The notes under the pieces were generated by a model. That model worked only from the letters and a program-made list of their open reading frames with translations. It was not told the DNA's origin and ran no database searches. From NCBI GenBank assembly GCA_028876495.1, contig JAGWRO010000011.1, positions 1 to 64,000 of the forward strand: 64,000 bases of DNA, in the 5' to 3' direction. The translations under genes and the position numbers were made by a program. Source of the stretch: Bacteroidota bacterium (GTDB taxonomy: Bacteria > Bacteroidota > Bacteroidia > Chitinophagales > Chitinophagaceae). Each line of letters opens with the position of its first letter. Within the stretch, counting starts at the first letter, position 1. Below, piece after piece: positions 12,466-27,951 of the stretch.

Positions 12466-12553
12466 GGAAGATTATTATTTTTTGAAAACATTCAAAGCTA
12501 CAGAATAGAAATGTAGTAGTAAATCAATAAAAAAGAAGAATTTTTCATTTGGC

Positions 12554-12612
12554 AAAAAAGAAAGCCGGATAAAAATCCAGCTTTGATTTAATACTATATA
12601 TTATGAAAAGAC
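12554..12612 (-). ncRNA. Small RNA candidate, fourth member of the 60-nt family
   Basis: On the minus strand a -7 box TACTTTTA (12625-12618) is followed by an RNA starting near 12612. It ends in a 10-bp hairpin (AAAGCTGGAT / ATCCGGCTTT, 12584-12575 and 12570-12561) and a T tract (12560-12554). Its 5' part (..CTTTTCATAATATATAG..) aligns position by position with the three tandem units at 27.5-27.9 kb, including the hairpin loop length. No start codon is conserved across the copies. Transcription is inferred from promoter, family conservation and terminator. Confidence 0.6.
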
Positions 12613-12617
12613 CGGTG

Positions 12618-12682
12618 TAAAAGTATTAGCAGATCAATTATAAAAATATGATAATAATCATTTAAAAACCTGAGTAATATAA
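12618..12682 (-). promoter_or_regulatory. CRP/FNR-type operator and promoter of the minus-strand sRNA
   Basis: The perfect palindrome TGAT-TATT-ATCA (12660-12649 on the minus strand) is centred 29.5 bp before the -7 box TACTTTTA. A degenerate copy lies 22 bp upstream (12682-12671). This is the same layout as at the stress genes. Confidence 0.55.
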
Positions 12683-27439: not shown

Positions 27440-27505
27440 AAACAATAATCATTGTTTTAACTGACCATTATCATTGTATTTATATATTCCCTGCATCTAT
27501 ATTTG
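27440..27505 (+). promoter_or_regulatory. CRP/FNR-type operator and promoter of sRNA unit 1
   Basis: TGACCATTATCA (27462-27473), with a half-conserved copy AAACAATAATCA 22 bp upstream, precedes a perfect -7 box TATATTTG (27498-27505) by 30.5 bp. Confidence 0.6.
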
Positions 27506-27510
27506 CTCAG

Positions 27511-27570
27511 GTTTTTCATAGGATATTGGATTAGATACAGAGCTGGATTTCTATCCAGCTCTCTTGTTTT
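27511..27570 (+). ncRNA. Small RNA candidate, tandem unit 1
   Basis: A predicted RNA of about 60 nt. The 5' segment (GTTTTTCATAGGATATTGG, then ATTAGATAC) is shared with unit 2, then a 10-bp perfect hairpin (AGAGCTGGAT 27539-27548 / ATCCAGCTCT 27553-27562) and a T-rich end (TTGTTTT). The copies differ by indels that break any common reading frame, favouring RNA over peptide. The start is inferred from the -7 box. Confidence 0.65.
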
Positions 27571-27654
27571 AAATAAGGAAAAAAATATTAACAGGCTGTG
27601 CATAACAAAAATGATTTTTGTGTAAAATGATTTTCACAGGTACATAAATGACCT

Positions 27655-27725
27655 TACATTTGCTGTAGGTTTTTCATAGGATATTGGATTAAAACGAGCT
27701 GGATTTCTATCCGGCTCTTATTTTT
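27655..27725 (+). ncRNA. Small RNA candidate, tandem unit 2 (with -7 box)
   Basis: The -7 box TACATTTG (27655-27662) is followed by an RNA from about 27668 with the same 5' block (TTTTTCATAGGATATTGG), a 9-bp hairpin (GAGCTGGAT 27696-27704 / ATCCGGCTC 27709-27717, one G-U pair) and a T tract to 27725. Unlike its neighbours it has no clear TGAY-N4-RTCA site at the expected place. A perfect odd-length palindrome, ACAAAAATGATTTTTGT (27605-27621), lies somewhat upstream instead. Confidence 0.58.
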
Positions 27726-27778
27726 CATGAACGAGATAACCATCTTTCTTCAGTTCATCTGCGAAATCTTTTCAACTC

Positions 27779-27844
27779 TAACAGTTATCATTTTTTTTAC
27801 TGACGAAAGTCATTGCATTGTGCTATTACTTGCCTTTACATTTA
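27779..27844 (+). promoter_or_regulatory. CRP/FNR-type operator pair and promoter of sRNA unit 3 / tolC
   Basis: TAACAGTTATCA (27779-27790) and TGACGAAAGTCA (27801-27812) are centred 22 bp apart. The -7-like TACATTTA starts at 27837, 30.5 bp from the proximal centre. It may serve both the small RNA and the efflux operon. Confidence 0.62.
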
Positions 27845-27849
27845 CATCA

Positions 27850-27909
27850 GTTTTTAATGAAATATTGGATTAAAATCAGAGCTGGATTCTATCCGGCTCT
27901 GTATTTTTT
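27850..27909 (+). ncRNA. Small RNA candidate, tandem unit 3, also 5' leader of tolC
   Basis: About 60 nt: a 5' block (TTTTTAATGAAATATTGG), a hairpin AGAGCTGGAT (27878-27887) / ATCCGGCTCT (27891-27900) with a 3-nt loop, then TATTTTTTA. The tolC ATG lies only 42 bp past the end, so the hairpin is either the end of an sRNA or a leaky terminator/attenuator in the leader of the efflux operon. Confidence 0.6.
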
Positions 27910-27951
27910 AGATTCATTTTTTGGACAAGAAGTCCTTCAATTTTTTTACGA

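Follow-up and report, generated by a model that had tools for sequence, protein, structure and literature searches.

Tandem units and regulator-type sites in the window

The window, i.e. the whole 64,000-nt stretch that was analyzed (C89:1-64000), is part of a 4.70-Mb draft genome. Within positions 27440-27912 of its plus strand we found three direct repeats, U1, U2 and U3, arranged head to tail, and each of these has the -7 box, 5' block, hairpin and T tract given in a preliminary description of this DNA. U1 is the RNA at 27508-27572 (covariance model R1, E 4.5e-18, and fold), consisting of the 5' block, a spacer, a terminator hairpin and a T tract. Its start would lie near G27510, its stem-loop GAGCTGGAT-TTCT-ATCCAGCTC occupies 27540-27561 on the same strand, as indicated by the fold and by covariation in the family, and its -7 box TATATTTG lies at 27498-27505. 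U2 follows at 27666-27728 (R1, E 1.1e-17, and fold) with the -7 box TACATTTG at 27655-27662, and U3 at 27847-27910 (R1, E 5.2e-10, and fold) with the -7 box TACATTTA at 27837-27844, all on the plus strand. The three boxes were read by eye, and the position of the box is conserved in the family. A shared 25-base block, AGGTTTTTCATAGGATATTGGATTA, is exact in both U1 and U2, while U3 matches it at 76% and diverges in the first half (TTTTAATGAAATATTGGATTA); the units are consequently near-identical, as had been claimed for all three, only in the case of U1 and U2. The hairpin GAGCTGGAT/ATCCRGCTC and the T tract recur in each unit, and the predicted fold has a mostly open 5' part, then one strong hairpin and then T residues, with z-scores of -2.77, -3.28 and -4.11. 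On the minus strand a further copy with a diverged block (TTTTCATAATATATAGTATTAA) was located at 12551-12615 (R1, E 1.2e-9), with the -7 box TACTTTTA, taken from the sequence, at 12618-12625. This is probably the fourth copy to which the preliminary description referred. A scan of the window against Rfam 15 returned nothing at gathering scores.

Three of the four window copies have a TGAY-N4-RTCA site, at an offset of exactly -51 from the TTTTC of the block, namely TGACCATTATCA for U1 (27462-27473, plus strand), TGACGAAAGTCA for U3 (27801-27812, plus strand) and TGATTATTATCA for the fourth copy (12649-12660, minus strand). The first two are those already described, and no such site was found upstream of U2. 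With a transcription start at the GG of the block, the center of the site would lie near -42, the class II position, and a CRP/FNR-type regulator would then activate these three copies together with the neighboring stress genes. In total, the window holds 18 TGAY-N4-RTCA sites against 4.06 expected, i.e. about fourfold, and 18 was reached in none of 100 shuffles. The sites span 1293-57502, a stretch with stress genes; nearby are genes for two Usp proteins, Hsp20, BON, DUF892, a P-type ATPase and a guanylate cyclase. A -7 box stands 20-28 nt past the site in seven out of 36 site/strand combinations (six distinct sites, as the one at 27462 counts on both strands), whereas random positions gave 0.62 on average and 5 at most. 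In the genome, six CRP/FNR-type HTH matches score above the cut-off, one of them with an internal stop.

A family of short RNAs in Chitinophagaceae

By employing R1, which was built from five copies, and a larger model, R2, built from 43 sequences, we carried out the covariance-model search that the preliminary description had proposed. In the genome of the window itself six copies were found by blastn, eight by R1 (E<=1e-6), nine by R2 (E<=0.001) and eight under a stricter R2 run, the ninth being C95:1569 (E 2.1e-6 with R2); at least three have a diverged block. R1 had a match at E<=0.01 in 115 of the 147 same-family genomes, up to a maximum of 15 in one genome, and in 105 the best match was at E<=1e-4. 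The order-wide search with R2 gave matches in 21 of 149 genomes (16 in the same family, five outside) and the phylum-wide search in 17 of 296 (10 and seven, respectively). Those outside the family are single and weak, and by eye mostly bare terminators; two of them, L096 and L099, retain part of the block. At least 118 GTDB contig stretches contain the 21-base block without a mismatch (genome_contigs scan). Among the 80 titles listed, 48 are Chitinophagaceae, either by name (25) or by one of 12 genera assigned to this family by NCBI taxonomy (23), and the others are four Chitinophagales/Chitinophagia, five Sphingobacteriales, one uncultured Bacteroidales and 22 named only Bacteroidetes or Bacteroidota. 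This distribution would place the genome of the window in Chitinophagaceae as well. No published description of the family was found by sequence or in the literature on Chitinophagaceae, Bacteroidetes, paralogous or FopS-related sRNAs, and the sRNAs mentioned in the accessible part of a Flavobacterium psychrophilum paper (PMC9723704) are other ones. The family is real and widespread in Chitinophagaceae and, so far as our searches reach, apparently undescribed.

Copy-by-copy reading of 20 copies from three genomes revealed three subfamilies in each genome: 13 copies were of type I (ATATTGGATT or near), four of type II (TTTTCATAGGGTACGGATTAAAA) and three of type III (GGTGTTTTTCATAGGTTA). The genome of the window, a fourth one, has one copy each of types II and III. 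A candidate Flavobacterium-type branch was rejected. Its eight G617 repeats with TTTTTCATAG hardly differ from one another anywhere in the stretch read, which points to an insertion-sequence-like repeat rather than a branch of the family, and the pattern TTTGN{3,8}TTTTTCATAG often arises by chance (247 out of 395 genomes, with similar control counts in many). Two single loci were also observed. The copy that lies between a HerA-like gene and recQ (L010:3194-6891) is kept in a genome of the same genus (L060, G156:C205), where there are three tandem copies. Another copy, L508:5817-5837, sits near baseplate-type genes on a 236-kb IMG/VR contig, which could be a phage or a bacterial contractile injection locus.

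The RNA character of the family was examined in 121 distinct copies picked from exact-scan loci by the 21-mer 5' block alone. A terminator-like hairpin, i.e. one of -8 kcal/mol or better plus a T tract, follows the block in 117 of these, compared with a mean of 11.8 in ten flank shuffles. The -7 box TAnnTT[TC][GA] stands at one exact offset in 58 copies and within one base in 61 (shuffled 1.3), so that about half have a recognizable box and the other half lack it by this strict pattern. In an alignment of 43 sequences (A5) seven of the nine stem pairs are changed on both sides, and eight of nine in one of 87 sequences (A7); the covariation score was reached by none of 500 shuffles in either. 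The larger set has 78 doubly changed cells against 13.1 when shuffled, the count of eight pairs itself being reached by 13 of 500 shuffles. Fitting to the model biases both alignments in its favor, and the scores drop when the partners are slid. The earlier claim of a family of RNAs about 60 nt long, in which an unpaired 5' segment is conserved and a terminator follows, is supported. Out of 95 copies with enough flank, eight overlap a called frame and 87 are intergenic. For 68 of the latter the next downstream gene is on the opposite strand, so most copies are not leaders, and a leader or attenuator reading is disfavored. Taken together, the family members are very likely trans-acting sRNAs.

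Promoter motifs differ between copies. A TGAY-N4-RTCA site starting between -75 and -30 was found in only seven of 202 collected copies (seven of the 202 had been picked up by the complement pattern by chance). This collection lacks U3 and the fourth copy, whose blocks are too far from the search word. Two tandem pairs beyond the window, in G071 (L037) and Niastella caeni (L149), have the site at -50, and the remaining two site-bearing copies, both in L060, have it at -39 and -37. CRP/FNR-type control accordingly concerns some copies only: activation by a redox or oxygen regulator, previously suggested for the units, fits the sites of U1, U3 and the minus-strand copy and does not extend to the family in general. 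The remaining counts refer to 193 copies with at most one block mismatch. A TACC-N4-8-GGTA palindrome, a candidate site of a further regulator, occurs in 30 of them, mostly at -53 from the block (shuffled 0.44); its carriers include L086, L089, L104, L154 and L196. GCARCnTTT, which we take to resemble an ECF -35 element, is present in 13 copies, mostly at -38 from the block (shuffled 0.16), namely L032-L035, L041, L044, L045, L120, L133, L203, L217, L218 and L226. Furthermore, 65 copies have a TTG with the spacing of a -33 element (shuffled 9.9). As several motifs stand in register with one start, the same RNA has apparently been placed under different controls. A different situation may apply to the C27 tandem pair (L009:4381-5230), which may be 3'-UTR-derived and processed from mRNA, since it lies directly behind a thioredoxin-like gene and is without a good -7 box. 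An upstream hairpin at this pair has arms that by eye seem to change together in relatives.

Candidate targets and competing readings

The family seed contains the complement of AUGAAAAA, and it is plausible that the 5' segment of the units pairs with targets. The outcome of the target tests was negative or weak. The 21-nt complement, searched in 20 genomes with up to three mismatches, gave only five RNA genes in the genome of the window. With ATCCTATGAAAA and at most one mismatch, 68 places were found in the same genome (31 and 37 by strand, against 18 and 25 for the reversed control). Among 30 of these that were fetched, five open a frame of 114-502 aa at that ATG (L261, L275, L279, L283 and L284, with L283 inside a longer open frame). 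A duplex test over 371 genes gave no signal, as 13, 8 and 10 out of 40 shuffled seeds were as good by three measures. Nor did secreted-like genes differ significantly from other genes in a 662-gene test (10 of 100 shuffles, p 0.06), in which shuffled seeds were scored on no more than the first 250 genes. The sampling for target prediction covered about 18% of one genome.

SusC starts were examined separately. The set from the genome of the window comprised 19 of 21 genes over cut-off, with L331 and L345 left out for an unclear start. In the 662-gene test with a 23-nt seed, its excess over other genes was matched by 39 of 100 shuffles, and its mean was as low in 26 of 100 (Mann-Whitney p 0.35). 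With a 27-nt seed, in silico pairing was as low for 11 of 200 shuffled seeds, and for 15 SusC starts of the relative G085 the family seed was equaled by six of 200. The FopS seed, paired as a positive control with 15 Bacteroides-type SusC starts, had a mean of -13.1 kcal/mol that none of 200 shuffles reached. On these Bacteroides-type starts the family seed was also low (one of 200), and the FopS seed on Chitinophagaceae SusC starts was equaled by 88 and 24 of 200 shuffles and, in the hold-out, by 180 of 400. For the family seed, the hold-out of 38 further G085 SusC starts was negative (136 of 400 shuffles as low; 341 of 400 if shuffling spared the first 11 nt), so that general SusC repression is not supported in the family, and SusC mRNAs were dropped as a general target class. 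By eye, a TGCTat-like motif recurs immediately upstream of the start codon in several G085 SusC genes (L450-L487).

The reading that we favor, with a probability of about 0.6, is that the units encode trans-acting sRNAs of about 60 nt that form a multicopy family in Chitinophagaceae, and that would pair with start codons in the manner of Bacteroides FopS and be expressed from many promoters. The 5' end would be the seed. Its UUUUUCAU is the complement of AUGAAAAA, with which mRNAs for exported proteins often start, and binding there would block translation initiation. With the same RNA under several promoters, one regulatory output could answer several stresses. The family, its structure, the register of its promoters, the positions of the sites and the likeness to the FopS seed are computational results; transcription and its start, activation and pairing at start codons are inferred.

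The preliminary description had instead proposed an FnrS analogue, which we take as a single-purpose, oxygen- or NO-responsive sRNA family under an FNR-type activator. The sites of three of the four window copies (at -51) and of the pairs L037 and L149 (at -50), the enrichment of sites around the window stress genes and the six HTH matches in the genome (one with an internal stop) fit this idea, which would nevertheless cover a minority of the family: just seven of 202 copies have the site, two of them (L060) at -39 and -37, the other promoter classes are commoner, and the Rfam frnS model (RF01796) scores 15.4 bits at 27609-27719, from 57 nt before U2, against a gathering score of 60. As a general reading it is not supported, and we regard it as rather improbable. 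We rate equally low the proposal that the units are a 3'-end element that is mobile or has been amplified, a terminator module that spread behind genes and does not regulate in trans. The upstream gene is indeed on the same strand for 63 of the 87 intergenic copies, tandem duplications occur and the C27 pair directly follows a gene; yet the -7 box fixed right before the block (58 of 121 copies against 1.3 shuffled) and the regulator-type sites in register point to own transcription, and the block appears to be kept better than a terminator would need.

That the block binds an RRM-type protein, with titration as the main function, is somewhat more credible, if still unlikely. A 20-nt block is exact in 50 out of 52 copies from the model and own-genome searches, a top-scoring and thus biased set, SusC pairing is not supported, and FopS is bound by RbpB, an RRM-1 protein, according to the accessible part of PMC11697453. 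Against this, the same part of that source has FopS itself acting by pairing, and at least three copies in the genome of the window have a diverged block. A short conserved peptide gene, finally, is very improbable. An open run of at least 19 codons from the first 40 nt to the end of the 74 nt read was seen in 134 of 193 copies; this length is given by a TTG inside the block, so the frame would start within the block and run past the terminator, while an ATG within the first 40 nt is found in only seven of 193, the spacer between block and stem varies by single bases (0-3, 5-8 and 11 nt) and the stem covaries as RNA. The earlier statement that reading frames are not conserved, for which a conserved frame in relatives had been named as the contrary observation, hence stands for ATG frames, although open runs are common. 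The estimates for these competing readings overlap, and their sum need not be one.

Beyond the sRNA family itself, a wider proposal can be put forward, to which we give slightly less than even odds: the RNAs would belong to an old Bacteroidota sRNA class whose 5' end, (G)UUUUUCAUAG, covers AUGAAAAA start codons, with FopS/GibS as one branch and the Chitinophagaceae RNAs (three subfamilies per genome, in four genomes) as another, and with the seed recruited to CRP/FNR-type, ECF-like and TACC/GGTA regulons. If true, one post-transcriptional output would be wired to many inputs, and the family would amount to one seed placed under different promoters. In the literature that we found, the functionally studied Bacteroidota sRNAs are mainly those of gut Bacteroides; the present family, if real in this sense, would be found in most sampled genomes of the large and mostly environmental Chitinophagaceae. 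It would also provide an easy way to test if seeds that cover start codons are in general use in a phylum not relying on Shine-Dalgarno sequences.

Comparison with known sRNAs

FnrS is induced without oxygen by FNR and depends on Hfq. Three of the four window copies and the two other tandem pairs would resemble it as sRNAs with a putative FNR-type site. They differ from it in that there is no significant model match, the family is multicopy and most members are without the site. Multicopy sRNA families are represented by Qrr and LhrC, whose paralogues have overlapping targets and several inputs or dosage effects according to the accessible part of PMC11697453; they belong to other phyla, and their sequence relation to the units was compared by Rfam scan alone. 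GibS, which in the accessible text of PMC7366714 pairs its 5' seed over start codons, as we propose for the family, is about 145 nt long with a second seed, R2, and middle hairpins, in contrast to the window units of about 60 nt with one strong hairpin. GibS and FopS have the R1 seed in common, as far as the accessible part of PMC11697453 tells.

The closest known kind is FopS (RF04319), with which the family has the layout and apparently also the GUUUUUCAUAG 5' seed in common. By the Rfam criterion the Chitinophagaceae RNAs are not FopS members. RF04319 aligns end to end to U2 and U1 with 17.4 and 16.9 bits, against a gathering score of 56, and unrelated Rfam families score higher in the same stretch (MicX 24.8, MicC 24.4, MicF 21.4 and RefA5 20.9). 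The model had no match at E<=0.01 in the genome of the window, and it exceeded the cut-off in two of 247 genomes of the phylum, both of another family (f31), which were taken as Bacteroides because RF04319 passes the cut-off in them, as it does in the control, Bacteroides ihuae. A weak match of 36.4 bits, with an intermediate block, was found in the same-family genome G034.

A typical FopS copy of the two f31 genomes reads TATATTTGCAGTGTG and then TTTTTCATAGTATTAGATTTAAGG, and the Chitinophagaceae family TATATTTGTCATGG and then TTTTTCATAGGATATTGGATTTTAA. Most of the FopS copies that were fetched agree with the family in all 11 nt of the 5' block GTTTTTCATAG (two read TTTTTCATGG). After it, FopS and the family have TATTrGA..TTTAA, with a 2-nt difference, the rest being similar with indels, and a FopS-like start, GTGTTTTTCATAGG, is found in subfamily III of the Chitinophagaceae genomes. 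The local score of the block against the FopS 5' end is 17.5, with two out of 20000 dinucleotide shuffles as high, in a comparison chosen after the similarity had been seen. The resemblance in the seed is short and could be of convergent origin.

Several differences separate the two: the RNAs of the window occur in another taxonomic family, their block has an extra GA, the spacer and stem look unrelated, their promoters are of several regulator types, and pairing with SusC mRNAs is not supported. The 5' end of FopS pairs with the start region of susC mRNA and stops translation, which RbpB counteracts, as described in the accessible part of PMC11697453. The likenesses are that both are multicopy, with nine copies in the genome of the window, that the -7 box directly precedes the RNA, and that a single-stranded 5' seed, predicted in the present case, is followed by a terminator. 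The family is probably like FopS in seed pairing as well.
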